Source: Actinomycetota bacterium
Lineage (GTDB): Bacteria > Actinomycetota > Actinomycetes > Mycobacteriales > Mycobacteriaceae
Length of the DNA: 60,745 nucleotides
Assembly (NCBI GenBank): GCA_018268465.1
Contig: JAFDWN010000002.1
Location: 510,100 to 570,844 of the forward strand
Reading direction: 5' to 3'
The translations under genes were made by a program, and so were the position numbers. The notes under the pieces are model-generated. The model had not been told where the DNA came from and searched no databases. It worked only from the letters and a program-made list of their open reading frames with translations. Numbering within the stretch: position 1 is the first letter of the stretch; every line of letters starts with the position of its first letter. Shown piece by piece: positions 18,653 to 36,077 of this stretch.

Positions 18653-18677
18653 TGTCTTATATTTCAGACTCTGTCTG
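18653..18677 (-). promoter_or_regulatory. IclR-type operator A (FMN dehydrogenase gene)
   Basis: Read in the gene direction: half-sites CAGAC, GTCTGA and TAAGACA, spaced by 3 and 4 nt, ending 14 nt before the start codon. The same 25-nt architecture occurs at 18784, 33952, 34058 and 36053. Confidence 0.65.
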
Positions 18678-18688
18678 TAGTAACGAGC

Positions 18689-18717
18689 AGCGTACGACGG
18701 CGGGGCAGGGCGGTCAA
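18689..18717 (-). promoter_or_regulatory. Promoter of the FMN dehydrogenase gene
   Basis: On the minus strand TTGACC (18712-18717) and TACGCT (18689-18694) are 17 nt apart, a near-consensus SigA promoter. The start would be near 18682, placing operator A at about +5. Confidence 0.6.
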
Positions 18718-18742
18718 GGCGGGCGCAGTGATGTGTTCGGCA

Positions 18743-18772
18743 TTGACTCACGTCACAAGCGTCGGGCAGAAT
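18743..18772 (+). promoter_or_regulatory. Promoter of the SDR / transporter / thioesterase operon
   Basis: TTGACT (18743-18748) and CAGAAT (18767-18772) are 18 nt apart. The predicted start near 18780 puts operator B at about +5, matching the layout of operators A, C and D. Confidence 0.5.
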
Positions 18773-18783
18773 GATCGACACAA

Positions 18784-18808
18784 CAGACAGCGTTCGATAT
18801 TTCGTACA
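18784..18808 (+). promoter_or_regulatory. IclR-type operator B (SDR operon)
   Basis: Half-sites CAGAC, GTTCGA and TCGTACA with spacings 3 and 4, in the gene direction. The motif ends 14 nt before ATG 18823, exactly as operator A does before its gene. Confidence 0.65.
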
Positions 18809-18822
18809 GGAGATGGACCACC

Positions 18823-19596
18823 ATGGACCTCGGGCTCACCGACCGCACCGCACTCGTATGCGCATCGACGTCTGGACTCGGCCTCGCGACCGCACAGGCC
18901 CTGGCCGCCGAGGGCGTGACGGTCGTGGTCACCAGCCGCGACACCGCCCGCGCCGAAGAGACCGCCGCCGCCCTGCCTGGCGCCGTCGGCATCGGCTGCG
19001 ACCTGGTCGGCGAGGGCGGCGCACTGCGCCTCTACGCCGCCGCGACCGCGCGCGTCGGCGAGATCGACATCCTCGTGCTGAACGGGCCCGGACCCGCGCC
19101 GGGCCGCGCAGCCGACGTCGAACCCGCCGACGTCGAGGCGGCGGTCGCCACCCTGGTCGCACCGCAGGTCACCCTCGTGCGTTCGGTCCTGCCGGCGATG
19201 ACGACCAGCCGTTGGGGACGCATCCTGAGCATCAGTTCGACCAGCGTCGTGGCACCGCTGGCCAACCTGGCCCTGTCCAACCTGGGGCGCGCCGCCCTGG
19301 CGGGGTACCTCAAGACGCTGGCCGCCGAGGTCGCGCCGCTGGGTATCACGGTGAATTCGCTGCTGCCCGGCCGCATCGCCACCCCCCGCGCCCGCCAGAT
19401 CGACGACGCCGTCGCGCAGCGCAGCGGGATGTCGCTCACCGAGGTCGAAAATGCCAGCGCCGCACTGATCCCCGTCGGACGCTACGGCGACCCCGCGGAG
19501 TTCGGCGCCGTGGCGGCATTCCTGTGCAGTGCCCCCGCTTCGTACCTGACCGGTACCGCACTGCGCTGTGACGGCGGGATGGTGCCGACGCTGTGA
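18823..19596 (+). CDS. SDR-family protein lacking the usual Tyr-x-x-x-Lys
   Basis: A 257-aa short-chain dehydrogenase/reductase fold. The N-terminal NAD(P) loop ASTSGLG (~14-20) and the LNGPGP stretch in place of NNAG (~86) are present, as is the catalytic-Ser region SISSTSV (~138). Where Y-x-x-x-K should follow, the sequence reads LALSNLGRAAL, so the Tyr and Lys are replaced. A known subgroup of FabG-like SDRs shares this LSN...R pattern; its reaction is uncertain. First gene of an operon with the transporter and thioesterase, behind operator B. Confidence 0.88.
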   Translation: MDLGLTDRTALVCASTSGLGLATAQALAAEGVTVVVTSRDTARAEETAAALPGAVGIGCDLVGEGGALRLYAAATARVGEIDILVLNGPGPAPGRAADVEPADVEAAVATLVAPQVTLVRSVLPAMTTSRWGRILSISSTSVVAPLANLALSNLGRAALAGYLKTLAAEVAPLGITVNSLLPGRIATPRARQIDDAVAQRSGMSLTEVENASAALIPVGRYGDPAEFGAVAAFLCSAPASYLTGTALRCDGGMVPTL

Positions 19597-19646
19597 CCAC
19601 CACGCCCGACCGATACCAACCACTCACCACCGAAGGGAACACCAGC

Positions 19647-20999
19647 ATGGACGGCAAGCAACCACCCCACCCGAGCCCGGACACCACCCGCGTCGGTGTC
19701 GCCGGGCTGATCGGCAGCACGATCGAGTGGTATGACTTCTACATCTACGGGATGGCGGCGGCACTCGTCTTCGGCCACCTGTTCTTTCCGTCCTTCTCGC
19801 CGGTCGCCGGCACGCTGGCCGCCTTCGGCACGTTCGCGGTCGGGTTCGTCGCACGTCCGCTGGGCGGGATCATCTTCGGCCATTTCGGCGACCGCGTCGG
19901 ACGCAAACGCGCGTTGATGCTGACGCTGTTCCTCATGGGCGCGGCCACCGTCGTCATCGGGCTCCTGCCCGGGTACGACTCGATCGGGGTCTGGGCTCCG
20001 GTGGCGCTGGTGGCGCTGCGATTCCTGCAGGGATTCGCCGTCGGGGGCGAATGGGGCGGCGCGGTGACGATGGTCGTCGAATCGTCGCCACCGCATCGCC
20101 GGGGGTTCTTCGGCAGCCTCCCGCAGATGGGTGTCCCCCTGGGACTGGTGTTGTCGACGTCGATATTCGCCGCGCTGGCGCTGCTGCCCGAGGAAGACTT
20201 CCAAGCCTGGGGGTGGCGGATTCCGTTCCTGCTCAGCGCATTCCTGATCGTCGTCGGCCTGTTCATCCGGGCGCGGATCAACGAGACACCCGCGTTCACT
20301 GCGCTCAAGGAGCACGGTGCCGAACACCGGCTGCCTGCGAAGGCGGCAATCCAGAACCACTGGCGCGCAATCGCACTGACGGTGGGGCTGTATGTGTCGG
20401 CGGGCGTGCCGTTCTACATCGTCACGGTGTTCGTGCTGGCATACGGTTCCAATGAGCTCGGCCTGCCGAAGAGTGTGTTGCTGACGGGCATGCTGGCCGC
20501 GGCGATCCTCGAAGCGTTCGCGGTGCCGTACTTCGGTGCCCTCTCGGACCGGCTGGGCCGACGTCCGGTGTTCATCGCCGCAGCGGCTTTCGCTCTGGTG
20601 CTGTCCTTCCCGTTCTTCATGATGCTGGCCAGCGGATCGACAGGACTGGTATGGCTCGCGATCATCCTGGCTCTGGCCGTCGCCCACGCCGGCATGTACG
20701 GGCCGACGGCAGCGCTGTACGCCGAGCTCTTCACCCCCGACGTGCGCTACACGGGCACGTCCATCGGCTACCAGCTCGGTGGTGTGGTGGCCGGCTTCGT
20801 GCCCCTGACCGCGGGTGCCCTGGTCAGCTCGGCCGGCGGGGCGAGCTGGCCGATCGCCACCATCTGGGCGGTCGCGGCGGCGATCGGTCTGGTGTCCGCG
20901 CTCATCGTCAGGGAAACCCGCGGCACCGACCTGACGGCGGGCATCGGTGCGGAGGGCACGACCGCGCAGGCACGCGACGACGACAAGGCCCCGGCGTGA
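19647..20999 (+). CDS. MHS-family MFS symporter (metabolite:H+)
   Basis: About 450 aa, 12 transmembrane helices. It has the metabolite:H+ symporter hallmarks: GSTIEWYDFYIYG in helix 1, FGHFGDRVGRKR in the 2-3 loop, GGEWGGAV in helix 5 and ALSDRLGRRP in the 8-9 loop. Relatives import carboxylates such as 2-oxoglutarate, shikimate, benzoates or proline betaine. I prefer ATG 19647, which follows GAAGGGA. An in-frame GTG at 19593 overlapping the SDR stop is the alternative. It is the likely importer for whatever the IclR regulon catabolises. Confidence 0.88.
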   Translation: MDGKQPPHPSPDTTRVGVAGLIGSTIEWYDFYIYGMAAALVFGHLFFPSFSPVAGTLAAFGTFAVGFVARPLGGIIFGHFGDRVGRKRALMLTLFLMGAATVVIGLLPGYDSIGVWAPVALVALRFLQGFAVGGEWGGAVTMVVESSPPHRRGFFGSLPQMGVPLGLVLSTSIFAALALLPEEDFQAWGWRIPFLLSAFLIVVGLFIRARINETPAFTALKEHGAEHRLPAKAAIQNHWRAIALTVGLYVSAGVPFYIVTVFVLAYGSNELGLPKSVLLTGMLAAAILEAFAVPYFGALSDRLGRRPVFIAAAAFALVLSFPFFMMLASGSTGLVWLAIILALAVAHAGMYGPTAALYAELFTPDVRYTGTSIGYQLGGVVAGFVPLTAGALVSSAGGASWPIATIWAVAAAIGLVSALIVRETRGTDLTAGIGAEGTTAQARDDDKAPA

Positions 21000-22057
21000 G
21001 TTCTGCCGGCACACCGGCGGCGGGGGTTCCCGCGGCGACGTCGACCGGACTCGGCGCCGCCGCGGGCCCCGGCCCGCGGCGCGACCACGTCATCCACCGG
21101 TTTCTGGTGCGCGCCGCGGACGCCGGGTATGTCGGTCATGTCGACGGGGGCAGGCTCCTGGAGTGGATCGACAAGGCGGGCTACGATGCCGCCGCACGCT
21201 GGAGCGGACGTTACTGTGTGACCGCCTACGTCGGGAATCTGCACCTGGATCGGCCCATCTCGGTCGGCGAACTCGTCGAGCTGCATGCCCAGATCGTGCA
21301 TACCGGCACGTCGAGTATGCACATCCTGGCCACCGTCTATTCGTCGGATCCCGCGCGCGGCAATGTGATCCAGAGCGCGCAGTGCCTCACGGTGTTCGTC
21401 GCCGTCGACGGTGACAGCAGGCCTGTCCGGGTCCCCGGGTTCGTTCCCGACTCCATCCTCGAGCTCCAGCGCAACCGTCAGGCGCGCACGCGCATCGAAC
21501 TGCGCAGGCGTATCGAGTCGGAGATCGCCGCCACCAGCTACACCACGGCAGGGACCGCGCCCGATGCGACGCTGCGATTCCTGGCGGCCCCGACCGATAT
21601 CAACTGGGGCGGCAAGGTACACGGCGGCCGCATCATGCGCTGGATCGACGAGGCCGGCTACGTGTGCGGATCACGCTGGAGCGCAGGGCCGGTCATCGCG
21701 TCGTACTTCGGCGGGATCCGGTTCTACGCGCCCATCCACATCGGTCAGGTCGTCGAGGTGAACGCCCGCCTGCTCTACACGGGTCCGTTCAGCCTGCATT
21801 TCGGAGTCCACGTGACGGCGATGGACACCGACGCCGGCGCCCACACACTGGCCGCGCACGCCGTGGCGGTGTTCGTGGGATTCGGTTCGGAAGGCAAACG
21901 CGCCGTGCCCGCATGGCATCCCGCGTCCACCGAGGATGTGGCCCTGTGCGACCACGCGGAGCGACTGATCGCGCTGCGGGCGGGAGCCGAGCCGTTCACG
22001 TCGGGGAGCCGGCCGCCGTCCGACGGTCCGCCGCAGCATGTGCGAACCGCCACCTGA
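20996..22057 (+). CDS. Double-hotdog acyl-CoA thioesterase
   Basis: A 353-aa protein made of two homologous hotdog domains (about 30-165 and 185-325). Each contains the HGGR...WIDeAGY helix: GHVDGGRLLEWIDKAGY near residue 45 and GKVHGGRIMRWIDEAGY near 208. This is the BACH/ACOT7 layout, which hydrolyses acyl-CoA to the free acid and CoA. The GTG start overlaps the transporter stop by GTGA, so translation is coupled. A residual open frame upstream is a shadow of the transporter. Its presence in the operon suggests that a CoA thioester is formed or detoxified in the pathway. Confidence 0.88.
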   Translation: MSSAGTPAAGVPAATSTGLGAAAGPGPRRDHVIHRFLVRAADAGYVGHVDGGRLLEWIDKAGYDAAARWSGRYCVTAYVGNLHLDRPISVGELVELHAQIVHTGTSSMHILATVYSSDPARGNVIQSAQCLTVFVAVDGDSRPVRVPGFVPDSILELQRNRQARTRIELRRRIESEIAATSYTTAGTAPDATLRFLAAPTDINWGGKVHGGRIMRWIDEAGYVCGSRWSAGPVIASYFGGIRFYAPIHIGQVVEVNARLLYTGPFSLHFGVHVTAMDTDAGAHTLAAHAVAVFVGFGSEGKRAVPAWHPASTEDVALCDHAERLIALRAGAEPFTSGSRPPSDGPPQHVRTAT

Positions 22058-22160
22058 CGGGCGTCGCTGCGGATTCGGGTCACATGGTTCACGGCCATGC
22101 GTTCGCGCGCGGGCCGCGTTCCATCGCGGCGTACGCCTCGGCCCAGGCGACGCCGGTGTC

Positions 22161-23228
22161 TCACTCGAAGACGATCACGGCCCGCCCCACGATGTCGCCG
22201 TGTGCCAGCTTGTGCAGATTGTCGTTGATGTCGTCGAGGCGCACCGGGGTGACCGAGTGTTTGATCAGCCCGTCGCCGGCCAGGGTGAGCACCTCGGTCA
22301 GATCGTTGTAGTTCCCCCAGAACGACCCGAAATACGTTCTCTCGCCGTTCACGAACGGCAGCAGCGGCAGTTCCACCCGCTGGCCCATCAGGCCGACCGA
22401 TCCCAGCGCGCCCTCGGGCGCGAGGATTGCAGCGCCGAGCGCCAGTGATTCCGGGGAGCCGGCGCAGTCCAGTATGGCGTCCACCTCCCCTCTCCCGGTG
22501 AGGTTTTCGAGTTCGTCCCGCACTTCCTCGGGCGTTCTGTCCCGGGTGTTGACGGTGTGATGGGCACCATGTTCCTTCGCGACAGCCAGCTTCTCGTCAC
22601 TGCGTGCGAATCCGACCACCGTCGCGCCGCCGCCCAGCAGCCGCGCGTACTGGACCGCATAGGAGCCCAAACCACCGATCCCGTTGACGACCACGGTCCG
22701 GCCCGAACCCAGTTTGCCGGCCTCCCGCAACTTCTTCATGCCGCGATACGGGGTCAGTCCCGCATCGGTGAGCGGAGCCAGGGTCTCGGGCGTCCGACCG
22801 GGGTCGCCCACGCGAATGAGGTGCCGGAACGGGACGGGCATGTACTCGGCGAAACCGCCTGGCGGGCCGAACCCGACCATCTGCCCGCGACGGCAGAGTT
22901 GCTCGTTGCCCTCATGGCACTGCCGGCAGGATCCGTCGCCCCAGTTCGGGTTGACCACCACCAGATCGCCCTCGGACAGGCGTGCCGAGGACGGGACGTC
23001 TTCACCCAGTTCGGCGACCCTGCCCGCGACCTCATGGCCGGGCGTCATCGGGAACGACAGCGCAGCGCCCTGGGCGAAGTACCCCTCGATGAGCTGGAAG
23101 TCACTGCGGCACATGCCCGCCGCCGCCACCTTGACGAGAACTTCGTCCGGACCGATTCTCGGCACCGGGATCTCCTCGATCCGCAGCGGCTCATGGTATC
23201 CGTGCAGCCGCGCAGCTTTCATCGTCAT
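22161..23228 (-). CDS. Zinc-dependent alcohol dehydrogenase (MDR family)
   Basis: A 355-aa medium-chain dehydrogenase. Catalytic-zinc ligands are in GMCRSDF (Cys ~38) and GHEVAG (His ~62). The structural-zinc loop reads GSCRQCHEGNEQLC, with only three of the usual four cysteines. The Rossmann motif GIGGLG is near residue 180. ATG 23228 follows a strong GGGAGGAG; longer upstream frames lack this. A copy of the nested-block motif (23338-23362) lies ~110 bp upstream in the same direction. It oxidises an unknown alcohol or reduces an aldehyde. Confidence 0.88.
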   Translation of the reverse strand: MTMKAARLHGYHEPLRIEEIPVPRIGPDEVLVKVAAAGMCRSDFQLIEGYFAQGAALSFPMTPGHEVAGRVAELGEDVPSSARLSEGDLVVVNPNWGDGSCRQCHEGNEQLCRRGQMVGFGPPGGFAEYMPVPFRHLIRVGDPGRTPETLAPLTDAGLTPYRGMKKLREAGKLGSGRTVVVNGIGGLGSYAVQYARLLGGGATVVGFARSDEKLAVAKEHGAHHTVNTRDRTPEEVRDELENLTGRGEVDAILDCAGSPESLALGAAILAPEGALGSVGLMGQRVELPLLPFVNGERTYFGSFWGNYNDLTEVLTLAGDGLIKHSVTPVRLDDINDNLHKLAHGDIVGRAVIVFE

Positions 23229-23337
23229 GGTGCTCCTCCCACGAGGTGGCCGCGACGGGATGGTCCTTCGCCATCGGTCGGTGGGCCGAGTCGGCACGCT
23301 GGTGTGCTCGATCATCCGGTCACCGACACGTGCGGCA

Positions 23338-23362
23338 CCATCGCACGACGAGTGATCATTAA
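23338..23362 (-). promoter_or_regulatory. Nested-block motif, copy 1 (upstream of ADH)
   Basis: On the minus strand it contains GATCACTCGTCGTGCGATG, sharing ATCAC-N-CG-N-CGTG-N-GATG with copies 2 and 4 and matching copy 3 slightly less well. It lies about 110 bp upstream of ADH ATG 23228, in the gene direction. Confidence 0.55.
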
Positions 23363-23497
23363 GCGGATGCGCCGAATCCCCGCCCCGCACAACGACCGGC
23401 CGGCCGGGGAACGCTCCTCCGGGGACACTGTCACCACGACCGGGCGCCGTGTGCCCATTCTCGGCGCGTGGTTGAGCCCCACGCTGACCACGGTCGC

Positions 23498-23522
23498 CTA
23501 AAGTTCACTCGCCGTGTGATGT
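23498..23522 (+). promoter_or_regulatory. Nested-block motif, copy 2 (upstream of GNAT)
   Basis: Contains TCACTCGCCGTGTGATGT, with the inverted repeat TCAC-N7-GTGA, preceded by CTAAAG. It lies about 270 bp upstream of ATG 23790, in the gene direction. Confidence 0.5.
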
Positions 23523-23789
23523 CGCACGTTCGCCACCTTGTGTCACCCTGGGTCGCAGTCCCGATTCACCACCGTCGAGTCCGAATTTCGGATGCACGCG
23601 ATCAGCGTCGGCGAATGCGCCACCGCGGAGGCGGCGCCGGCTTGCCCGCATCGCCCGCGGTCGCAATCCCGCTGCGAGAGAGCGCACATCCGGTCTCGTT
23701 CCCGCGCTGTCGCACGAAACACGGGGGGCGTCCTCGGTCCGGATCGGTCCGGCCGACCCAGGGCGACAGGACACGACGAGAGGATAGCC

Positions 23790-24632
23790 ATGGGGGACGT
23801 TCACATCGGCACGTTGGCCGAGGCCGCCGAAGCGGAGTTCATGTACACCTACGAGTCGAAGGCGTCGCCGTTGACCAGGGCTACCCTGGGTATCGGGACA
23901 CTGCGCATCGGCGGCGGTGTGGCGCTGTCAATGCGCCACGACGTCACGGGCTATTGGAGCAAAGCACTCGGTTTCGGACTCACCGAACCGATCAGCAGCG
24001 ACCTGATCGATCAGGTGATTCGCTTCTACGTCGCCGAGGGCAGCTCGGGCGCGGTCATCCAGATCGCCCCGAATGCCCGGCCCGCAGACTGGGCGGAGAT
24101 CCTCGCGCGTCATGACCTGCGCCCGGAATCCCCTTGGATCAAACTCGCCTGCAAGGTCGATGACGTCGTTGCGGACCGCGGCACGGGTCTGCGTATCGGG
24201 CCGGTCGGCGCGAACGATCGCCGACGATGGGCGTCGACGACACTGCGGGCCTTCGGCATGCCCGAGTACGGTCTGGTCGACATGATGGCGGAGAGCCTGG
24301 CGCACCCCAACTTTCGTCCGTTCGCCGCGTGGGACGGCGACGAGATGGTCGCGACGGCAAACCTGTTCATCCATGGAAGACTCGGGTCGCTCAGTTCCAC
24401 CGCCACTGTGCCGAGTCACTGCAACCGGGGGGCACAATCTGCGCTGATCACCGCGCGCGCCCGAGAGGCGGCGAACGCGGGATGCGTCTGGCTGTGCGCC
24501 GAAACGGGTGCGCCCGAGGACGGTGGCACAACGTCGTTCGGCAACCTGCAACGCAGCGGCCTGCGGATCCTCTACGAACGGCAGAACTGGGTGTGGTCCC
24601 CTCCTGCGGACTCCGGTCGACCGTCGCCCTAA
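23790..24632 (+). CDS. GNAT-family acetyltransferase-like protein
   Basis: A 280-aa protein with a C-terminal GNAT fold (about 140-270). The acetyl-CoA-binding stretch is degenerate: HCNRGAQSALITARAREAANAGC corresponds to the R/Q-x-x-G-x-G/A loop and following helix, then LCAETGAPEDGGTTSFGNLQRSGL. The N-terminal half has no motif I recognise; a double-GNAT arrangement is possible. ATG 23790 follows GAGAGGA; the frame is open further upstream but without a ribosome-binding site. Substrate unknown. Confidence 0.75.
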   Translation: MGDVHIGTLAEAAEAEFMYTYESKASPLTRATLGIGTLRIGGGVALSMRHDVTGYWSKALGFGLTEPISSDLIDQVIRFYVAEGSSGAVIQIAPNARPADWAEILARHDLRPESPWIKLACKVDDVVADRGTGLRIGPVGANDRRRWASTTLRAFGMPEYGLVDMMAESLAHPNFRPFAAWDGDEMVATANLFIHGRLGSLSSTATVPSHCNRGAQSALITARAREAANAGCVWLCAETGAPEDGGTTSFGNLQRSGLRILYERQNWVWSPPADSGRPSP

Positions 24633-24653
24633 AGATCACACCTCGAGTGATGT
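24629..24653 (+). promoter_or_regulatory. Nested-block motif, copy 3 (upstream of lipoprotein)
   Basis: CTAAAG followed by ATCACACCTCGAGTGATGT; the inverted repeat is ATCAC-N7-GTGAT. It lies about 150 bp upstream of ATG 24805, just after the GNAT stop codon. Confidence 0.5.
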
Positions 24654-24804
24654 TGGTTGTCTGCGGTGCATGTGACTCTGATCCAGCAGGCAGATCCGAC
24701 AGGCTCGCTGTCCGGCCAGGCGCGTTACGCGGCAGGCACGAGGGAGATCTGTGACGCCCGCCGCGAGACCGTGCACACCCACCGGGATGAAGGAAGGCAC
24801 CATC

Positions 24805-25101: not shown

Positions 25102-25159
25102 GTGCAGCGACTCGTCGGGCCGGAGCCTGAGCATCACCCGGCCGACGCGATCGCACCGA

Positions 25160-25184
25160 CAGAAGATCACCCGCCGTGCGATGG
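25160..25184 (+). promoter_or_regulatory. Nested-block motif, copy 4 (upstream of AKR operon)
   Basis: Contains AAGATCACCCGCCGTGCGATG, matching copy 2 at 18 of 22 core positions. It lies about 110 bp upstream of ATG 25296, in the gene direction. Confidence 0.55.
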
Positions 25185-25295
25185 AGGCGCTCGACGTCCG
25201 ATGCGAATATCGATCCAGAGGGACATCCGGACTCAGCCACCGTGGTGGCTCCATAGGTTTTGTCCCGGAATCAGTTCCGTCACCGAGGAGTGAGC

Positions 25296-26309: not shown

Positions 26310-26320
26310 CGAGGAAGACC

Positions 26321-26767: not shown

Positions 26768-26804
26768 TTCGGCTGCGGCAGAACGGCTACCGGGGAGCGC
26801 CGCT

Positions 26805-27310: not shown

Positions 27311-30175
27311 TCACGAACACCGGCTGGCGGGACCGCTGACGTCGTCACCGCGCGCCAACCGCGTCAATTGATCGCGCGACCGGATCCCCATCTTTGCGTA
27401 GACATTTCGCAGATGCGTATTGACGGTGTGGTGCGAAACGCTGAGTTGTCCGGCAACCTGACGATTGGTCGCGCCCTCTGCGACCAATTCGGCCACCCGC
27501 CATTCCGAGCGCGTGAGGCTCTCCCAGCCGGTGCGCACGCGCTGGCGACCGACGCGGCGGTCCACGCCGAGCGCGTGCAATGCCCGCCCCACGCGTCGGG
27601 CGTCGGCGGTGCTCTCGCATTCGGCGTACACGTCGAACGCGGCGCCGAGCCGGCTGACAGCACGCTCGTGGTGACCGGCCCTGGCCAGCGCGTGGCCGCA
27701 ATCCTCCACCGCCGCCGCGTAGAGCAGCGGCCGCTCGCCCTCCACGAGGGTCTCGCCGGCCGCTTCCAGACTGTCGGCGTCGTCGCGGAGCAACCCGCGG
27801 GCGTGGCGCGCCACCGCGGTGAACACCGGAACCCCGTTGGGTTCCCGTTCGAGCCGGTCGGCCGCGGCCATCACCCGCTCCCGCAGTCCGAGATCGCCTG
27901 ACTCGCCTGCGATCCGCGCCGCAAGCACCACGTGGTCGAGGGTTACGGCGAACAACGGGGTTCCGAGCAGGTCGATGTCCTCGCCGAGGAGATGGCCGGC
28001 GGCGTCGGCATCACCGTGCTGCCACGCGATGAGCGCCTGCGCGGTCGCCGCGGCTCTTCGGCGGGCAGGGCCCTGGCCCATCAGATGGCGGGCCGCGATT
28101 CCGGCCGCTCGCTGCGTGGTGCGGCTGTCGGTGTGCGCAGACAGTTCCGTCAGCACCAGCAGATGGATCAGGCCTGGGGTGTGGTCGTCGATGTAGTCGA
28201 TGCCGCCGGGTACGGATTCGACGATGCTGCGCGCTTCGGTCAGTCGGCCCGCCGCGACGGCACGAAGCGCATTCAACTCGGTGAAGTGGGTCAGCCAGAG
28301 GCTGTCGCCGGCCCTGCGCGCGGCGTCGAGCCGCCGGTTGATCACCTCGGCGGCCTCGGTGAGCCGCCCGAGCGTCAAGGCGAGGTTCGCCCGGTGGAAG
28401 GCCGCGAGGTCACCGACGACGTCGACCGATCCCGGCCGCACCCGGCCCCGCACTTCGGCCAGCCGCTCCAGGCCCTTGCGGCCCGATCCCTCAGCGCACT
28501 CCACGTTGGCCAGCGCGAGCCCGGCGACGATGGACACGCTCGTGTCCCGGCTGAACGCGGCGGCGGCGATCGCGTCCGCCGCCGCGGGGCGAGCGGCCTC
28601 GGTCTGACCGTCCAGCATCAGGTTGTACGCCAGCCAGCCGAGGTGTTGCGCGCGGGTGCGCGGCGAAATGTGGGACATTCGCAGCGATCGCCGGTTCTGC
28701 TCGATGCGTTCACCCGCGCCCCGTTCCGACAGGATCGACATGCTCAGCCGGATCTGCGCCTCGTCCTCGGGCGCAATATCGCCGGACAGCGCGGCGGCGA
28801 GCAGGCGCTGCGCCTCGTCGTATCGCTGCGCCCGGTTGAGGAAGCGGACGGTCTCCGCCACCACCACGTTGCGTTGCGGGTCGTCGATCCGCACCAGTTC
28901 CAGGGCCCGACCGCTCAGGGTGGCCGCAGCCGACGGATCGGAGCAGGCCAGCGACCCGGCGGCACGGCGCAACGTGACCACGGCGTCGTGGTCACCGATA
29001 TCGGCGCTGCGCGCAATCTGGATGGCCACCTGTGCGGGCGCGGCACCCGCTTCGAGCAGCATCGTGGCGGACTCGCGCTCGAGGACGCGGCGCAGGGTGG
29101 ACGGGATCGACTGCCGCGCCGCGTGACGCAGCAGGTCGTGCCGGAACCTCAGCCGATCAACGTCCTCGGTCAGCAGGTCCGCGCGCACCGCTTCGCCGAT
29201 GACCTCGATCAACCCTGCGGCGTCCCGCTTGACCATCCGGGCGAGCAGGACTGCCGAGAAGGTCTCGGGCAGCACCGACGCCACCTGGACCACCTGACGC
29301 GCCGCCGCCGACAACCGGTCGAGCCGGTGGTCCATCGTGTCCGCGAGGCGACCCGGTATCTGCCTGCCGTTGACGGACACCCGCCCGCGTTCGACGAGCA
29401 GCCGGCCCTCTTCGCTGAGACCTTTGAGCAGTTCCAGCAGCAGGAACGGATTGCCCTCGGCCATATTCGTCAGTTCCATCAGGGTGTCGTCGACGTCGGC
29501 GCGCAGCACGTCCTTGGCGATGTCGGCTGCCGCACGAACACTGACGGCACCGAGGCGAATCCGGTGCGTGCGCAGACCGCATCCGCGCGCCATCGCCCCG
29601 ACGAGTTCCCGAACGGCCGGGGAGCCGGCGCCGGATCGCAGCGCGAGCACCCATGCGACGGGTTCGTCGGCGAGGCCGGCCATCAGTTCCCGCAACACCA
29701 TCAGGCTTCCGGTGTCGGCCCAGTGTGCGTCGTCGATCAGGACCACCAGCGGCGTCTCACGTGCGGCGGCGGCGATGGCGGACTGCAGGTCGTAGGCCAC
29801 CCAGTAGCGCAGGTCGGCGCTGGCGCCCAGCGTCCTGAAGACGTCGGGGTCGCCGATCGGCGGCGCGGTGCCGAGAAACGCCGCGAACAGCGGGGCGAAC
29901 GGCACCATCTGCTGGTCCTCGAACGCCTTGCCCAGCAGCGGGCGGACCCCCGGCGCCAACGCCCGGGCCCGCACCTCCGAGAGCAGGCGTGACTTCCCGA
30001 TTCCCGGGGGCCCTTCGAGCAGCAGCAGCGAACCGGAATCGCTTCTCAACCTGGCGATGACGTCGCCGATGACCGCCAGCTCGTCGGATCGACCGCGGAT
30101 GGGAAGCTCATGGTGTGTCGCGGCGTGCAGCGCCCGTCCGGCCACCGCGTTGCCGTCGACGCCTCTGGTGGGCAT
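27311..30175 (-). CDS. Large ATP-binding LuxR-family (LAL/MalT-type) regulator
   Basis: A 954-aa regulator. An N-terminal AAA/STAND ATPase (~25-330) has Walker A LLLEGPPGIGKSRLL near residue 53 and Walker B LVVLIDDAHWAD near 140. A long alpha-helical TPR-like middle follows (~400-860). The C-terminal LuxR helix-turn-helix (~885-945) reads LTRSEWRVAELVAEGATNRQ then VSHHTVNTHLRNVYAKMGI. Such proteins activate genes when bound to an inducer and ATP. It is convergent with the AKR operon. Its position makes it the prime candidate to bind the four nested-block motifs (inference). Confidence 0.9.
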   Translation of the reverse strand: MPTRGVDGNAVAGRALHAATHHELPIRGRSDELAVIGDVIARLRSDSGSLLLLEGPPGIGKSRLLSEVRARALAPGVRPLLGKAFEDQQMVPFAPLFAAFLGTAPPIGDPDVFRTLGASADLRYWVAYDLQSAIAAAARETPLVVLIDDAHWADTGSLMVLRELMAGLADEPVAWVLALRSGAGSPAVRELVGAMARGCGLRTHRIRLGAVSVRAAADIAKDVLRADVDDTLMELTNMAEGNPFLLLELLKGLSEEGRLLVERGRVSVNGRQIPGRLADTMDHRLDRLSAAARQVVQVASVLPETFSAVLLARMVKRDAAGLIEVIGEAVRADLLTEDVDRLRFRHDLLRHAARQSIPSTLRRVLERESATMLLEAGAAPAQVAIQIARSADIGDHDAVVTLRRAAGSLACSDPSAAATLSGRALELVRIDDPQRNVVVAETVRFLNRAQRYDEAQRLLAAALSGDIAPEDEAQIRLSMSILSERGAGERIEQNRRSLRMSHISPRTRAQHLGWLAYNLMLDGQTEAARPAAADAIAAAAFSRDTSVSIVAGLALANVECAEGSGRKGLERLAEVRGRVRPGSVDVVGDLAAFHRANLALTLGRLTEAAEVINRRLDAARRAGDSLWLTHFTELNALRAVAAGRLTEARSIVESVPGGIDYIDDHTPGLIHLLVLTELSAHTDSRTTQRAAGIAARHLMGQGPARRRAAATAQALIAWQHGDADAAGHLLGEDIDLLGTPLFAVTLDHVVLAARIAGESGDLGLRERVMAAADRLEREPNGVPVFTAVARHARGLLRDDADSLEAAGETLVEGERPLLYAAAVEDCGHALARAGHHERAVSRLGAAFDVYAECESTADARRVGRALHALGVDRRVGRQRVRTGWESLTRSEWRVAELVAEGATNRQVAGQLSVSHHTVNTHLRNVYAKMGIRSRDQLTRLARGDDVSGPASRCS

Positions 30176-30342
30176 GCGGTCACCTCCGCGTCCGCGCCGG
30201 CCTGGCGAACGTATGAGACCTCACGCCGGCGACGTTATCGGGAGAGTCTTCATGACCACTGGACGGCGAGTGGATTGCGTGCTTGTCGGGCCCGCGAGCC
30301 ACTCAGCCAGGCGTGGCGAGTAAGCGATCGGAGCGCAACGCC

Positions 30343-32463
30343 TCACCGATGTTGCCGCGGTGCCACTGCATGCGCGGTGCCGGCCGGATCGGCGAGCGGG
30401 CCCGCCGACCATCGGTGGTAGGCGAGCCGCTCCACGTCGGATTCGTCGCCCGAGGAGATGGCCTCAAGCGCTCGCGCGATACGCAGATGCAGGTGGTTCA
30501 CCTGCCGGGACGGGGTGATCTCGGTGACCGATTCGCGAACCACATCGTGGGTGAAGCGGCACGAGAACGGACTGCGGGGACTGCGCTCGAGCAGACCGAG
30601 GGCTTCCAGTGGCTCGAGTCGGTCGAAGCAGGTTTCGAGATCGAGGCCGACGGCTCTGGCCAGAAGGTCCAGACCGATCTCCCGGCCGATGAGCGATGCC
30701 GTGTAGAGGACGTCTCTGCAGTTGTCGTCGAGGTGTGCCACCCGGTCCTTGATGACGTCGCGAACGGTGGCGGGCACGCCCGCGCGGATGACGGACTCCG
30801 CGGTCAGAGCGCCAACGTCGGCGAGGAATCTCGACAGCTCGCGCACGAAGAACGGGTTTCCCCCGGTGCGGGCATGGATCCCGATCGTGGCGCCCGGATC
30901 GGGATCGGGCCCGGTCTCGCGACGGACGAGTTCGGCCACCTCGGCCAGATCGAGCGGTTCGAGCCGGATGCGGCGGTGACCGGGCAGTCGACTCGCGAGG
31001 GCGAGCACGTGTGCGAGGTCGGTGCCGGGGGTGGGCACGCGGTCCCGCAGCGCCCCGATGACGACGGTGCCGGCCGGGAGACGGGCCGTGAAGTGACTGA
31101 ACAATCGCAGCGACGCGACATCGGCCCAGTGCAGATCGTCGACCACCACGACGATGGGGCGCTGCGCGGATGCCTCACCCACAAATGCCACGACGCGTTC
31201 GAACAAGCGGAACTGGGTACCGCTGTCCGCAAGCACCGACCCGGCGAGAATGCCGTCCCGCGGCTCGACGAGACGTCCAAGGTCACTGTCGAGCCACCGT
31301 TCCCGCGCCGCGGCCGGCAGGCTGGCCAGCACCGAGCCGACCACCTGGACCCACGGCCACATCGACGGCGTGCCCTCACCTTCGAGACTGCTCGCCCACA
31401 CCACGAGCGCATCCCGCCGATCGACGCCGGCGGTGATCGCGCGAAGCAGATGCGTCTTGCCCACCCCCGGCTCGCCCTCGACGAGGACCAACCCCGTGCG
31501 GCCGGCGAAACCCGCATGAATGACCTGTTGCAGCACCGCCACCTCCTCGGCCCGTCCGACGAGGCCGGGCACGCCGGGGCCGGCCGAACTCGCGGCGGCT
31601 CGCGACGCCGTCTGCGGTTGCCCGGTGTCCGCCCGTCGCGTCAGCGGGAACGTGCGACTCAACACCCGTTGATGGGCGTCCACGAGGATCCGGTCCGGGT
31701 CGAGGCCGAGCTCCTCCACCAGCCTGGTGCGCACGGCCTGGAACGCCGACAGGGCCTCGACTTGCCGTCCGGCGGCACCCAGGACCGTGATGAGCGCCGC
31801 GTGCACCGGCTCGTGCAACGGCGCCATCACGGCGGCCAGTTGCACCGGCACCAGCACCCGCTCCGGTTGGCCCAGCGACACTGCGAGTTCGACTGCCGCC
31901 AAGCACGTTTCGAAGTACTCGTCGTTGAGTGACGCGAAAATGGCGGCGGCCGCAGGCTCCGGCATCAGCCCATCGCCGGCCGGGCCAGTCCAGAGCCCCA
32001 GCGCCTCGACGTAATGGTCGAGCGCCGCTTCGTCGCGACGCTCGGACACGGCGGCTGCTGCGGCTGTCACCAACTCCCGGAAGTCGACCAGGTCCAACTC
32101 CTTCGGGCCGGCCGTCAACAGGTAGTGGCTGCCGCGCCGTACCAGATAGGAGCCGGGTTCTCGCGCCGGGAGCGACGGTTCGAGCAGCCGCCGCAAAGTG
32201 CCGACGTACTTGTGGATGACATTGTGGGCGCTGGCGGGAGCGCCCTCGCCCCAGATCAGATCGACCAGTTCGGCGATGCCGGTGGGCCGGCCCTCCCGCG
32301 CCAACAGCAGCGCGAACAGGTAGGCCTGCTGCCGAGGACCAGCGGCCACCTCGACGTTGTCGCGCCACACCCGCACCGGGCCCAGAACCTGCACGCGTAC
32401 GTTGCCGCCCGACGCCGACCGGCCGGGGCGGAAAGCGTCGAGCGGGCCGGTCTGGGCGGTCAC
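30343..32463 (-). CDS. SARP (BTAD)-type regulator with AAA ATPase domain
   Basis: A ~706-aa regulator. The OmpR-like winged helix plus bacterial transcriptional-activation domain of SARPs occupies about residues 20-270 (QVLGPVRVWRDN ... LLARE...HNVIHKYVGTLRRLLEP). An ATPase domain starts near residue 300 with Walker A LVEGEPGVGKTHLL and Walker B VVVDDLHWAD. AfsR-like relatives usually continue with a long TPR region, which is absent; the protein stops soon after the ATPase. I prefer GTG 32463, 7 bp after the aldehyde dehydrogenase stop, over a start at 32571 that overlaps it. Probably co-transcribed with that gene. Confidence 0.82.
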   Translation of the reverse strand: MTAQTGPLDAFRPGRSASGGNVRVQVLGPVRVWRDNVEVAAGPRQQAYLFALLLAREGRPTGIAELVDLIWGEGAPASAHNVIHKYVGTLRRLLEPSLPAREPGSYLVRRGSHYLLTAGPKELDLVDFRELVTAAAAAVSERRDEAALDHYVEALGLWTGPAGDGLMPEPAAAAIFASLNDEYFETCLAAVELAVSLGQPERVLVPVQLAAVMAPLHEPVHAALITVLGAAGRQVEALSAFQAVRTRLVEELGLDPDRILVDAHQRVLSRTFPLTRRADTGQPQTASRAAASSAGPGVPGLVGRAEEVAVLQQVIHAGFAGRTGLVLVEGEPGVGKTHLLRAITAGVDRRDALVVWASSLEGEGTPSMWPWVQVVGSVLASLPAAARERWLDSDLGRLVEPRDGILAGSVLADSGTQFRLFERVVAFVGEASAQRPIVVVVDDLHWADVASLRLFSHFTARLPAGTVVIGALRDRVPTPGTDLAHVLALASRLPGHRRIRLEPLDLAEVAELVRRETGPDPDPGATIGIHARTGGNPFFVRELSRFLADVGALTAESVIRAGVPATVRDVIKDRVAHLDDNCRDVLYTASLIGREIGLDLLARAVGLDLETCFDRLEPLEALGLLERSPRSPFSCRFTHDVVRESVTEITPSRQVNHLHLRIARALEAISSGDESDVERLAYHRWSAGPLADPAGTAHAVAPRQHR

Positions 32464-32470
32464 GGCCCGC

Positions 32471-33943
32471 TCACACCGGCCCGTGCCCGTCGACGCGCCG
32501 CGGGATCCCCAGCGGATTGGCGTCCTGCAAGGCGGCGGGCAGCAGATGATCCGGTAGGCCCTGATAGGCAACCGGCCGCAGGAAGCGGTTGATGGCAGCG
32601 GAACCCACCGACGTGGAACCCGGCGCCGTGGTCGCGGGATAGGGGCCCCCGTGCTGTTGGGCGTCGGAGACGGTGACGCCCGTCGGCCACTGGTTCCACA
32701 GCACGCGGCCGGCCTTGCCCGCCAGGCGGCGGATCAGTTCGGGCGCGATCACGTCGGTGTCGTTGCCGTGCACAGTGGCGGTCAGCTGTCCGCCGATGAC
32801 GTCGGCGACGTCGAGGAGTTGGCGTTCGTCGTCGTATTCGACCACCAGCGCCGTGGGGCCGAAGACCTCGGCCACCAGATGCTCGGGGTCGGCCAGCAGC
32901 TCGGCGATCGTGGTGCGCAGCAGCGTCGGGGCGGGCGGATCGGTGCGAGCGCCGTCACCGAGCACCAGCGGCGTCACCGCAGCGTGGGCCGCCAAATCGT
33001 CGAGGGCGTCGACATATCCGGTCTGGATGCGGTCGTTGAGCAAGCGGGCGGGGGCGGGCAGGGCGGTGCCGGCCAGACTGTCGGCGATGCCGGACTCGGC
33101 CGGCACCAGCAGGATTCCGGGTTTGGTGCAGAACTGGCCCGCGCCCAGCGTGAAGGAGCCGACGAACTCGGCCGCGATGCTGCCGGGTCGTTGCGCCGCC
33201 GCTGATGCGGTCACGAATGTCGGGTTGACGCTGCCCAATTCGCCGAAGAACGGGATCGGATCGGGCCGGCCGTTGGCGATGTCGAACAGCGCGCGTCCGC
33301 CGGGGATCGACCCGGTGAAGGATGCGGCCTTGATCCGCGGGTCGGCCAGGGCCACCCGGCCGGCGTCGGTGCCGGTGATCACCGCGACGATGCCGTCGAT
33401 CCCGACGCTTCTGCGGATCTCGTTGGCCACCAGCTCCCCGGTCAGTTCGGACAGCCGGGGATGCCCGGAGTGGGCCTTGACGATTACCGGACAGCCCGCC
33501 GCCAGCGCGGACGCGGTGTCGCCGCCGGCCACACTGAACGCGAAGGGAAAGTTGCTGGCGGCGAACACCAGCACCGGCCCGACGGGTTCGTGCACCCGCC
33601 TGATGTCGGGTCGTGGACCCATGCCCCACGAGGGGTCGGCATGATCGACGCGCGCGTCGAGGTAGCGGCCTTCGGCGATGGTGTCGGCGAAGAATCGCAG
33701 CTGAAATGTCGTCCGCACCAACTCACTTCGGAGCCGCTGCGCGGTCAGGTGGGTCTCTTCGGCGGCGGTGGACACCAGCCGGTCGGCGTCGTCGTCGAGC
33801 CGGTCGGCCACGGACCTGAGAACCCTGGCTCTGATGGTCGGCGCCGTCCGCATCCAGGTTCGCGCGGCACTGTCCGCCGCGGCCAGGACCGCTTCGAGCC
33901 GGGCTGACGACGTGGCGGAGGGCGGCGGCGTGGTGATCGTCAT
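32471..33943 (-). CDS. Aldehyde dehydrogenase (alpha-ketoglutarate-semialdehyde dehydrogenase family)
   Basis: A 490-aa NAD(P) aldehyde dehydrogenase of the branch that includes 2,5-dioxovalerate and fatty-aldehyde dehydrogenases. Its signature is FAASNFPFAFSVAGGDTASA then VIVKAHSGHP (~135-175). The catalytic Glu is in FFGELGSVNP (~240) and the Cys in GAGQFCTKPG (~277). ATG 33943 is set by GAAGGAG 6-8 nt upstream; the longer open frame to 34159 has no support. The promoter carries operator C. It probably oxidises a semialdehyde intermediate of the IclR-controlled pathway. Confidence 0.9.
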   Translation of the reverse strand: MTITTPPPSATSSARLEAVLAAADSAARTWMRTAPTIRARVLRSVADRLDDDADRLVSTAAEETHLTAQRLRSELVRTTFQLRFFADTIAEGRYLDARVDHADPSWGMGPRPDIRRVHEPVGPVLVFAASNFPFAFSVAGGDTASALAAGCPVIVKAHSGHPRLSELTGELVANEIRRSVGIDGIVAVITGTDAGRVALADPRIKAASFTGSIPGGRALFDIANGRPDPIPFFGELGSVNPTFVTASAAAQRPGSIAAEFVGSFTLGAGQFCTKPGILLVPAESGIADSLAGTALPAPARLLNDRIQTGYVDALDDLAAHAAVTPLVLGDGARTDPPAPTLLRTTIAELLADPEHLVAEVFGPTALVVEYDDERQLLDVADVIGGQLTATVHGNDTDVIAPELIRRLAGKAGRVLWNQWPTGVTVSDAQQHGGPYPATTAPGSTSVGSAAINRFLRPVAYQGLPDHLLPAALQDANPLGIPRRVDGHGPV

Positions 33944-33951
33944 CCTCACTC

Positions 33952-33976
33952 CTTCTGATATTTCGGACTCTGCATT
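33952..33976 (-). promoter_or_regulatory. IclR-type operator C (aldehyde dehydrogenase gene)
   Basis: In the gene direction: a weak first half-site AATGC, then GTCCGA and TCAGAAG with spacings 3 and 4. It ends 8 nt before ATG 33943. The right part overlaps the ribosome-binding site. Confidence 0.55.
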
Positions 33977-33988
33977 AGATATAGGACA

Positions 33989-34017
33989 ATCGTGACACGA
34001 CCGCCCCGCTCGGTCAA
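33989..34017 (-). promoter_or_regulatory. Promoter of the aldehyde dehydrogenase gene
   Basis: On the minus strand TTGACC (34012-34017) and CACGAT (33989-33994) are 17 nt apart. It is back to back with the ADH promoter; the two -35 boxes are only 3 bp apart. Confidence 0.5.
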
Positions 34018-34020
34018 CCC

Positions 34021-34049
34021 TTGACGCCTCCGGGTTCGTCGTCGATACT
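34021..34049 (+). promoter_or_regulatory. Promoter of the zinc ADH gene
   Basis: TTGACG (34021-34026) and GATACT (34044-34049) are 17 nt apart. The predicted start near 34056 puts operator D at about +2. Confidence 0.55.
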
Positions 34050-34057
34050 CGATATGC

Positions 34058-34082
34058 CAGACGTTGTCTGATATTTTGCACA
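34058..34082 (+). promoter_or_regulatory. IclR-type operator D (zinc ADH gene)
   Basis: Half-sites CAGAC, GTCTGA and TTGCACA with spacings 3 and 4, in the gene direction. It ends 24 nt before ATG 34107. Confidence 0.65.
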
Positions 34083-34106
34083 GTCCCCGAACCTCCGAGG
34101 AGCACC

Positions 34107-35288
34107 ATGAAGGCCGCCGTATTGCACAGGGCCCGTACCCCATTGACGATCGAGGACATCGACCTGTCTCCGCTGCACCCCGGCGACGTGCTGGTGCGGG
34201 TGCAAGCCGCGGGCGTCTGCCACAGCGACCTCCACTACATCAACGGCGACCTCACCGCCAAGCTGCCCGCCGTCCTCGGACACGAGGGCGCCGGGATCGT
34301 CGAGGCGGTGGGCCCCGGCGTGACCCGCGTGCAACCCGGGGACACGGTGGTCACGATGTGGCGGCCGCGCTGCGGCGAATGCGAGTACTGCCTCACCGGC
34401 CGTCCCGCCTTGTGCCAATTGGGTCGGGTCCACGCCGCGACAGGCGGCCTCATCGACGGAACATCGCGATTGAGCCTGCACGGCAATCCCGTTCATCACC
34501 TGATGGGCGTGTCCTGCTTCGCCGAACAATGCGTGGTCTCCGAACGTTCGGTGATCCCGATCGATCCCGGCGTCGCGCCGGAGATCAGCGCCATCGCCGG
34601 CTGCGCGGTCGTCACCGGCGTGGGCGCGGCGCTCAACCACATGAGCGGGGCCACCGGCGAGCCCGTCGTGGTGATCGGTGCGGGCGGTGTCGGACTGAGT
34701 GCCATCATGGGGCTCGCGCTGCTCGGCGCACACCCGATCATCGCGGTCGACACCGTCGACGCCAGGCTGGAACTGGCCATGAGCGTCGGCGCGACGCACG
34801 GCGTCAACCCGACCGTCGTCACCGATACCGAAGCCGAGATCGTCCGAGCGTGCGGGCGGGCCCCGCGGTGGGCGCTGGACGCGGTGGGCGCCGCCGCGAC
34901 CCTGCGCCAGGCGGTCGACGTCGTGGCCACGGGCGGCACCGTGGTCGCAGTGGGTCTCGGCCGGGTCGGCGCCACCGTGGAAGTGCCGATCAATCCCCTG
35001 GTCCAGCAGGAGAAGACGCTGATCGGAAGCCTCTACGGGTCAGCCAACACCCCGCTGCAGATCCCCGCCATCCTGCGCCTGTACCAGGCGGGGAAGCTGC
35101 CGCTGGCGCGGCTGCTGGGCCGGACCTACGAGCTCGGCGAGATCAACGACGCCTACCACGCGATGGCCAACGGTGCCGTCGGCCGCGCCGTGATCAGAAT
35201 GCCCGAACCCGCTCACGATCACGCCCTGGGCAGCGCACCGAGGTTCTCCGACATATCCCTGGCCCCGTCGAGCACGAGCTCGACGTAA
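34107..35288 (+). CDS. Zinc-dependent alcohol dehydrogenase (class III-like MDR)
   Basis: A 393-aa zinc alcohol dehydrogenase. Catalytic zinc ligands are Cys in AGVCHSD (~38), His in GHEGAG (~60) and Cys in AGCAVVTGVG (~168). The structural zinc loop CGECEYCLTGRPALC is complete with four cysteines, and the Rossmann motif GAGGVG is at ~191. It would oxidise an alcohol to the aldehyde used by the divergent aldehyde dehydrogenase (inference from shared regulation). The last ~23 codons overlap the end of the convergent IclR gene by 70 bp. ATG follows GAGGAG. Confidence 0.92.
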   Translation: MKAAVLHRARTPLTIEDIDLSPLHPGDVLVRVQAAGVCHSDLHYINGDLTAKLPAVLGHEGAGIVEAVGPGVTRVQPGDTVVTMWRPRCGECEYCLTGRPALCQLGRVHAATGGLIDGTSRLSLHGNPVHHLMGVSCFAEQCVVSERSVIPIDPGVAPEISAIAGCAVVTGVGAALNHMSGATGEPVVVIGAGGVGLSAIMGLALLGAHPIIAVDTVDARLELAMSVGATHGVNPTVVTDTEAEIVRACGRAPRWALDAVGAAATLRQAVDVVATGGTVVAVGLGRVGATVEVPINPLVQQEKTLIGSLYGSANTPLQIPAILRLYQAGKLPLARLLGRTYELGEINDAYHAMANGAVGRAVIRMPEPAHDHALGSAPRFSDISLAPSSTSST

Positions 35289-35995
35289 CGCGCCTTGGCC
35301 GCCTTGTTCCACCGCAGGATGGGTACCGAGATGCTCATCGCGGCCACCGTCGCACCCGTCCGGTCGCGCACCGGCGCCGCCACGCAGGCGATGTCGGCGT
35401 TGGACTCGCGGTTCTCCTCCGCCCATCCGCGTTTGCGGACGCCCGCGAGTTCGGAGAACAGCCGCTCCCGATTGTCGATGCTGTTCTCGGTCATCGGGCG
35501 CAGGTCCGCGTCGGCCGGGAAGAGCGCGTCGACCTGGTCATCCGGCAGCGCCGCCAGCATGGCCTTACCTCCTGCGGTGCAGTACGCGGGTAGGCGGCTG
35601 CCCACATGAGACACCAGCCGGATCGTGTGGGTGCTGTCGATACGCACCACGTAGATGACGTGTGCACCCTCGCGGATGACGATCTGAACGGTCTCACCGC
35701 ATTTCGCCGCCACCCGGGTGGCGCTCTCCCGGCCGATCGACACCAGGTCCAGTCCGCGCTCGTAGGCCGCGCCAAGGCGAAAAGCGTTGGTCGCCAGGAC
35801 GTAGCGGCTCGGTGGCTCCGAAACCGCCTGCAGATAACCGCGATCGACGAGCGTGGCGACGAGTTCGTGGGCGGTGGCGCGGGGCAGACCCAGCCGCTCG
35901 GTGATCTCGGGCACGCGCAAACCGTCGTTGGGTTCGAGGAACAATTCCAGGATGTCCAGACCCCGCCGCAGGGCGGGGGCGGTGAGCCGGCTCAT
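35219..35995 (-). CDS. IclR-family transcriptional regulator
   Basis: A 258-aa IclR regulator. The N-terminal winged helix (~1-70) has GLRVPEITERLGLPRATAHELV as helix-turn-helix, and the C-terminal effector-binding domain (~80-255) includes LPAYCTAGGKAMLAALP and CVAAPVRDRTGATVAAMSISVP. I chose ATG 35995 (MSRLTAP), where the family homology begins. It is divergent from the hydratase gene, with operator E between the two. I propose it controls operators A-E. IclR relatives such as PcaU use three half-sites, as seen here. Confidence 0.92.
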   Translation of the reverse strand: MSRLTAPALRRGLDILELFLEPNDGLRVPEITERLGLPRATAHELVATLVDRGYLQAVSEPPSRYVLATNAFRLGAAYERGLDLVSIGRESATRVAAKCGETVQIVIREGAHVIYVVRIDSTHTIRLVSHVGSRLPAYCTAGGKAMLAALPDDQVDALFPADADLRPMTENSIDNRERLFSELAGVRKRGWAEENRESNADIACVAAPVRDRTGATVAAMSISVPILRWNKAAKARYVELVLDGARDMSENLGALPRA

Positions 35996-36052
35996 GGCGG
36001 TCCGTTCGTGGTGTGGGTGTCGATGGTCGATCGACCGATGCACCGATCATAC

Positions 36053-36077
36053 CGGACACTGTCTGATACGTCGGACA
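36053..36077 (+). promoter_or_regulatory. IclR-type operator E (IclR / hydratase divergent promoter)
   Basis: Half-sites CGGAC, GTCTGA and TCGGACA with spacings 3 and 4. The right two form the 18-bp near-palindrome TGTCTGATACGTCGGACA (36060-36077). On the minus strand TATGAT (36046-36051) is a good -10 for iclR, so the site would cover the iclR promoter and allow autoregulation. Confidence 0.7.

Follow-up and report, generated by a model that had tools for sequence, protein, structure and literature searches.

The window analysed here is a 60,745-nucleotide stretch of an Actinomycetota bacterium assembly (GCA_018268465.1; 6.88 Mb, contamination estimate 5.86%; window at C22:510100-570844). 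In it, a gene for an IclR-family regulator lies among genes for a flavin mononucleotide (FMN)-dependent 2-hydroxy-acid dehydrogenase/oxidase, a short-chain dehydrogenase (SDR), a metabolite/H+ symporter, a thioesterase-like protein, an aldehyde dehydrogenase (ALDH), a zinc alcohol dehydrogenase (ADH) and a hydratase-like protein (Table 1). Five operator-like sites precede these genes, and they are real, far beyond chance. Their positions, spacing, conservation, co-occurrence with the iclR gene and register with promoter-like elements can all be read from the DNA itself, and the reading that one IclR protein would act on all five as a regulon is well supported by them. Four of the five operators are built from two palindromic boxes with four half-sites, and the fifth, between iclR and the hydratase gene, has three.

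Table 1. Operators, promoter-like elements and genes of the predicted regulon. Ranks are those of the boxes in the window with the other-genome matrix described in the text, in the order in which the boxes are given.
Feature	Position	Strand	Remarks
Operator of FMN hydroxy-acid dehydrogenase gene	18653..18689	-	right box 18653-18670, left box 18672-18689; four half-sites; ranks 1 and 6
Operator of SDR/symporter/thioesterase operon	18772..18808	+	left box 18772-18789, right box 18791-18808; four half-sites; ranks 7 and 4
Operator of aldehyde dehydrogenase gene	33952..33988	-	right box 33952-33969, left box 33971-33988; weakest of the five, adjoins start codon; ranks 5 and 8
Operator of zinc alcohol dehydrogenase gene	34046..34082	+	left box 34046-34063 (weak, 5.5), right box 34065-34082; ranks 16 and 2
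iclR/hydratase operator	36053..36077	+	right box 36060-36077, inner-left half-site 36053-36058; three half-sites; rank 3
Promoter-like TTGACT-N18-CAGAAT of SDR operon	18743..18772	+	last -10 base is first base of left box
Promoter-like TTGACG-N17-GATACT of zinc ADH gene	34021..34049	+	-10 overlaps first four bases of left box
IclR-family regulator	35219..35995	-	258 aa (HTH_IclR and IclR_C)
FMN-dependent 2-hydroxy-acid dehydrogenase/oxidase	17349..18638	-	target
Short-chain dehydrogenase (SDR)	18823..19596	+	target; first gene of operon
Metabolite/H+ symporter	19593..20999	+	start codon overlaps SDR stop
Thioesterase-like protein	20996..22057	+	two 4HBT stretches; overlaps symporter stop; no match in the G041 stretch searched
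Aldehyde dehydrogenase	32471..33943	-	target
Zinc alcohol dehydrogenase	34107..35288	+	target
2-keto-4-pentenoate / 2-oxo-heptenedioate hydratase-like protein	36133..36906	+	target

The five 25-mers (CAGACAGAGTCTGAAATATAAGACA, CAGACAGCGTTCGATATTTCGTACA, AATGCAGAGTCCGAAATATCAGAAG, CAGACGTTGTCTGATATTTTGCACA and CGGACACTGTCTGATACGTCGGACA) were all found in the window at the positions and on the strands that the initial annotation had given them. Each faces the gene that had been named as its target, all five in the same orientation, and the named genes are present. The consensus is CRGAC-N3-GTCTGA-N4-TCGGACA, with spacings of 3 and 4 nt that hold in all five sites. The half-sites, which had been described as shared, are common to the sites as a consensus and not letter for letter: in the weakest one (33952-33976) AATGC replaces CRGAC and TCAGAAG replaces TCGGACA.

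An extra outer-left half-site, overlooked in the initial annotation, lies 12 nt upstream of the 25-mer at four of the five window sites. The operator unit at these four is a pair of 18-bp palindromes (box consensus about TGTCTGA-N4-TCGGACA) with one base between them and centres 19 bp apart, 37 bp in total. We scored the boxes with a matrix from other genomes, made of four boxes of G041 and one of G307, two genomes with an IclR 79% and 62% identical to that of the window; the left boxes of the window were not used in building it. Taken 19 bp upstream of the right box, the left boxes of the first four operators in Table 1 score 14.8, 12.5, 11.9 and 5.5, values attained by 0.010-0.026% of window positions, and at the same four sites the offsets from 15 to 24 other than 19 score -7.3 or lower. 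Across the window and G041, 19 bp is the best of these offsets in all ten operators. The window iclR/hydratase operator has no outer-left half-site (score -3.6), only the inner one. In G041 the operator toward the SDR gene reads TGTTCGAAACAACAGACA-c-TGTCTGAAATATCGAACA, again two 18-bp palindromes one base apart; left boxes there score 14.2 (FMN), 18.8 (SDR), 18.0 (ADH) and 3.3 (ALDH, weak), and the iclR/hydratase operator likewise has three half-sites, its left position scoring -0.4 with the window matrix. A tandem of palindromes 18-22 nt centre to centre is therefore present, at 19 nt, in four of five window operators, and in G041 it is clear in three of five and weak in a fourth. Both species keep the same split: four half-sites at the structural genes (the left box being weak at the G041 ALDH gene) and three at iclR.

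The three-half-site operator that had been proposed for all five sites thus survives at the iclR/hydratase promoter, in both genomes, and gives way at the other four window sites, which have a second, weaker box; for these, a PcaU-type operator is ruled out by the left boxes at their fixed 19-bp offset. The layout reported for PcaU and PobR, with one palindrome, one external half-site and no fourth, was found solely at the iclR/hydratase promoter. The likeness to these regulators that had been drawn holds for that operator; it fails for the fourth half-site elsewhere and for the protein, which reaches 159.7 bits against a cut-off of 284.75 for the PcaR/PcaU/PobR subfamily (TIGR02431). The 37-bp operator can also be described as three nested palindromes, namely the two boxes, of group 1, and a group-2-like junction pair CAGACA-n-TGTCTG.

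With the 25-mer pattern CRGACANNGTCTGATATNTCGNACA (up to 3 mismatches, with a reversed-pattern control), the whole source genome gives five matches, four of them the window sites and one at C66:96285; the control gives none. Site 33952 is missed at this threshold, and other degenerate members of its kind may likewise escape this weak whole-genome pattern search. A motif equally common away from the locus, the outcome that had been named as speaking against a regulon, was hence not found for the 25-mer, four of its five genome matches lying in the window. We rejected C66:96285 as a regulon site and took it for a chance match in coding DNA: its window-matrix score is 2.4, and to the eye the sequence around it looks like a coding frame. 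With the other-genome matrix the five right boxes take ranks 1-5 in the window (scores 25.5 to 17.8) and the left boxes ranks 6, 7, 8 and 16. The maximum in 40 first-order Markov controls was 16.1, below the lowest of the five right boxes (17.8).

The cluster of G041 has the same order, with FMN enzyme (77% identity), SDR (76%), symporter (79%), ALDH (70%), ADH (73-75%), IclR and hydratase. A window-only matrix, built from five window boxes, was run on a 13-kb stretch of G041: the eight best matches are boxes of the five matching operators (28.7-14.2), and the next match scores 7.65. The best chance scores of 60 Markov controls, each of 20 kb, average 11.6 and reach 17.4, and because of the latter value the weakest of the eight boxes counts only via its fixed place beside a strong box. 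Where the intergenic DNA of the two species was aligned, box bases agree at 55 of 72 positions between the FMN and SDR genes (65 of 112 outside the boxes) and at 18 of 24 between iclR and the hydratase gene (34 of 113 outside). About 11.5 kb of the window (about 21000-32470, with the thioesterase, a second zinc ADH, an aldo-keto reductase, LuxR-type and BTAD-type AAA regulators and others) is absent at that position in G041, where the symporter and ALDH genes are 145 bp apart. Among the 25 best box matches of the window, none in this interval scores above 4.7.

Co-occurrence of motif and regulator was followed through 396 genomes of the genus, the source genome included (IclR at E<=1e-50; up to 6 candidates scored per genome). 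The IclR is found in two of them. The 25-mer occurs at up to 3 mismatches in 11, with one reversed-control match: G000 has four matches, G041 two that overlap, and the other nine genomes one each at 3 mismatches, eight of these being identical in sequence. Two or more sites, or a site with no more than 2 mismatches, are seen in both genomes with the regulator (2/2) and in none of those without it (0/394). Among 100 relatives, a set that partly overlaps with these genomes, six have a match, and again G000 and G041 alone have two or more matches or one with at most 2 mismatches. G084, whose IclR is 50% identical, has no such match. These counts and the five matching operators of G041 support the proposal that a single IclR regulon comprises the five operators and the named targets, and that the motif goes together with this iclR gene. 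The identical 25-mer, CAGACATTGCCTGCCATGTCGAACA, stands once each in G725, G049, G633, G702, G676, G523, G743 and G778, is 3 mismatches from the operator pattern and is perhaps a conserved coding stretch.

The position of the boxes relative to the promoter bears on what the regulator might do. TTGAC, first seen by eye and then computed, precedes the left box by 25-29 nt in all eight structural-gene operators (four per species), where about 0.3% would be expected per five-position stretch of the window. If the spacer is set at 17 or 18 nt, the best -10 element has its end at box position 0-4 in 8/8 of these operators, and therefore the operator covers the -10 edge and the probable transcription start. 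The -10 elements themselves match only modestly, with 8 to 10 of the 12 bases of the two hexamers together. The right boxes are centred about -12 to -33 from the start codon in nine of ten operators. Mainly because the operator covers the -10 edge and the probable start, the sequence favours repression rather than activation.

Very probably, judging from the DNA, the IclR protein encoded at 35219-35995 is a local repressor of an accessory catabolic cluster, acting through the 37-bp two-box operators and the three-half-site operator at iclR/hydratase. The predicted repressor would bind the 37-bp operator, with its two 18-bp boxes, at the four structural-gene promoters, most likely as a dimer of dimers. 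This operator reaches from the 3' end of the -10 element to beyond the probable transcription start, so that bound repressor would bar RNA polymerase or block its clearance. The three-half-site operator would control the divergent iclR/hydratase pair and thus iclR itself; its box at the regulator's own promoter lies 65 bp upstream of the iclR start. A substrate or intermediate of the pathway would release the repressor, turning on uptake (symporter) and oxidation (FMN enzyme, SDR, aldehyde and alcohol dehydrogenases, hydratase). Binding, the tetramer, repression and induction are what we infer from the arrangement. With little confidence we add that one IclR could dock on the 37-bp operator in alternative dimer registers. 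Three-box operators (that of iclR, perhaps the PcaU type generally) may be four-box operators that have shed an outer half, so that the regulator's own gene would be repressed more weakly than the pathway genes, or differently.

Both arrangements, tandem and three-box, are known from published IclR-family sites. In a comparative study of 1340 IclR-family factors, two palindrome types are distinguished, three-box sites are given for 32 orthologous groups and tandem sites, spaced by 18-22 nt, for 94; site centres fall most often at -22 from the start codon (Suvorova and Gelfand, 2021, PMC8222616). The operators described here resemble its tandem palindromes, with 19 nt between centres, and the box fits its subgroup NGTYCRAW4TYGRACN except that GTCTGA has a T in place of C. 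They differ in that the boxes are one base apart, which makes the inner half-sites a group-2-like pair as well, and in that the box adjoining the -10 element is in most cases the weaker one. The iclR/hydratase operator is like the three-box sites of PcaU, PobR and HmgR, with one palindrome and an external half-site of alternating direction; unlike these, the structural-gene operators have a fourth half-site and the protein falls outside PcaR/PcaU/PobR by its cut-off. A similar GTCTG-type actinobacterial box, GTCTGWWATWCCAGAC, is listed for HutR of Corynebacterium resistens (Table 1 of PMC8222616), which is given for histidine utilisation, whereas the gene content here differs. IclR regulons are described as generally covering the regulator's own expression and one or two adjacent operons (PMC8222616); the present one is a normal catabolic regulon of the family, but has more transcription units. 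Another IclR repressor is the subject of PMC13273656. The regulon itself was not found in the open-licence papers searched. What is new is this particular regulon, together with the mixture of four- and three-half-site operators that a single regulator appears to have and that both species retain. The regulon is local, clean and open to testing, and belongs to a rare mycobacterial gene cluster, with one regulator and five similar operators matched by five in a second genome, and it unites the tandem-palindrome and three-box descriptions under one regulator, so that alternative dimerisation becomes testable. The wider biological gain is modest. The pattern is solid and of a familiar type.

We weighed three other explanations. 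That the sites are chance or compositional matches has practically no probability left. It would draw on the looseness of the single 18-bp box: the pattern TGTYYGANATNTCRRACA (up to 2 mismatches) has 13 places in the source genome, four inside the window and nine outside (reversed control 2), and 9 to 35 places in each of nine other genomes, seven of which lack this IclR. None of the nine outside places of the source genome has a partner box at +/-19 bp (scores there are -13.3 to -50.1), the 25-mer is specific to the locus, the matrices work across species, and the window-only matrix recovers the same promoters in G041. The nine places sit in open frames of at least 349 aa from stop to stop, which says little because some true sites also lie in such frames (184 to 556 aa); one of the nine, C70:251665, has a box score of 17.7, near that of the weakest window site. 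With a loose single box and no partner 19 bp from any of the nine outside places, the specificity comes from the longer site.

Recognition of the operators by a different regulator from the same region, of the LuxR or BTAD type (AAA proteins at 27311-30175 and 30343-32571) or of the LysR family (15976-16842), or by an IclR paralog, is very unlikely. These regulators are indeed neighbours, and the source genome has 24 IclR-family matches, this one included. G041 nevertheless has five operators, and in its contig stretch 14741-38004 (E<=1e-10; the rest of the genome was not searched) the LuxR-type and BTAD-type proteins have no match and LysR one of 30% only, from which we judged all three improbable as the cognate regulator. 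Moreover, the box also stands upstream of iclR homologues in other genomes, and the motif follows this iclR. A further explanation leaves the sites with this IclR and makes the protein an activator or dual regulator of the PcaU/PobR type, with the genes switched on by the effector. Three-box sites are reported for PcaU, PobR and HmgR, the family includes activators and dual regulators (PMC8222616), and the window iclR/hydratase operator does have three half-sites; the register of the -10 element in all eight structural-gene operators nonetheless suits repression better, and the regulator lies far under the PcaR/PcaU/PobR cut-off. We therefore regard this version as improbable, though less so than a different regional regulator.

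Several observations weigh against repression of the whole cluster by this one IclR through two-box operators. The second box is weak at the ADH gene of the window (5.5) and at the ALDH gene of G041 (3.3). A paralog might cross-bind, given the IclR-family matches counted above. The boxes of the other-genome matrix were chosen with a symmetric consensus written after the window sites had been seen, so this matrix is not fully independent. A consensus promoter scanner calls the SDR and ADH promoters only, and none at the FMN, ALDH or iclR/hydratase genes. The hydratase beside IclR in G041 is merely 46% identical. The contrast between boxes and surrounding bases is modest in the FMN/SDR and ALDH/ADH spacers; in the latter, 38 of 72 box bases agree with G041 and 36 of 91 outside. 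Close comparison consists of one ortholog pair and G307, with the regulator in 2/396 genus genomes, and among the more distant homologues treated below 13 of 30 loci, including G307 (18), fall under the two-box threshold.

The regulator has both domains of its family (PF09339, 58.5 bits; PF01614, 158.1 bits) and matches solved IclR-family structures. Members of the family bind palindromes of group 1 or group 2 type as dimers or tetramers, and candidate sites of this form are present in the window. Its best NCBIfam match is BhcR (NF045644), at 163.7 bits against a cut-off of 350, and among the best 25 matches per protein no NCBIfam family reaches its cut-off for any of the ten proteins compared. 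The nearest structures of the FMN enzyme are lactate oxidase, mandelate dehydrogenase and glycolate oxidase, those of the aldehyde dehydrogenase 3V4C and 1EYY, and those of the hydratase HpaH/MhpD-type enzymes. With uptake, alcohol and aldehyde oxidation, hydroxy-acid oxidation and a hydratase, the predicted gene set is that of a small-molecule catabolic pathway; from the enzyme classes one might guess at an alcohol/aldehyde/hydroxy-acid or sugar-acid route. Homologue neighbourhoods (BhcR/KdgR-like matches, a gluconolactonase neighbour, glycolate or sugar-acid routes) gave no firm answer as to the effector.

More distant iclR homologues (about 45-53% identity) were compared at 30 loci, taken from 29 of 36 other genomes of the class with a match at E<=1e-58 (the remaining seven have no locus) and from G041. 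Many of these genomes are close relatives and do not make 30 independent cases; their main family is probably Streptomyces, to judge from one database match. The layout of two boxes separated by a single base recurs here in front of the iclR homologue itself at most loci examined: the pair scores at least 21 of 28 in 17/30 loci, G041 included, a gap of 5 does so in 1/30 and the remaining gaps from 0 to 8 in 0/30, and none of 150 shuffles per gap reaches this score. The neighbouring genes differ from those of the window, and an SMP-30/gluconolactonase-family gene follows iclR in one that was scanned. Such a gene (L050:10764-11600) lies directly after the iclR homologue, and a related gene stands there in 6 of 12 loci compared with L056 (L050 included), which points faintly to sugar acids or lactones as possible effectors in this branch. 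A scan of genome contigs gave two loci, L014, which was used, and L015 (30% identity, Agrobacterium); plasmid records gave two matches, both near 51% identity. G307 has boxes upstream of iclR and two tandem pairs at L048:12268-12403, upstream of an enoyl-coenzyme A (CoA) hydratase frame. A further strong box of G307 (L048:5043-5060) lies just upstream of an Nramp-like metal transporter frame, in a region with CoA-transferase-like and enoyl-CoA-hydratase-like genes.

Some smaller features of the locus may be added. The zinc ADH and iclR genes converge, and their 3' ends overlap by 70 bp (35219-35288), by the same 70 bp in G041 and by 64 bp in G307. Downstream of the hydratase gene lies one for an AurF-type oxygenase-like protein (36978-37931); in G041 the hydratase gene has a phosphoenolpyruvate-utilising-enzyme gene beside it instead. 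The aldo-keto reductase frame at 26706-27248 matches positions 2-71 of 291 of its Pfam model, the first quarter, continues into a tail and looks like a remnant.

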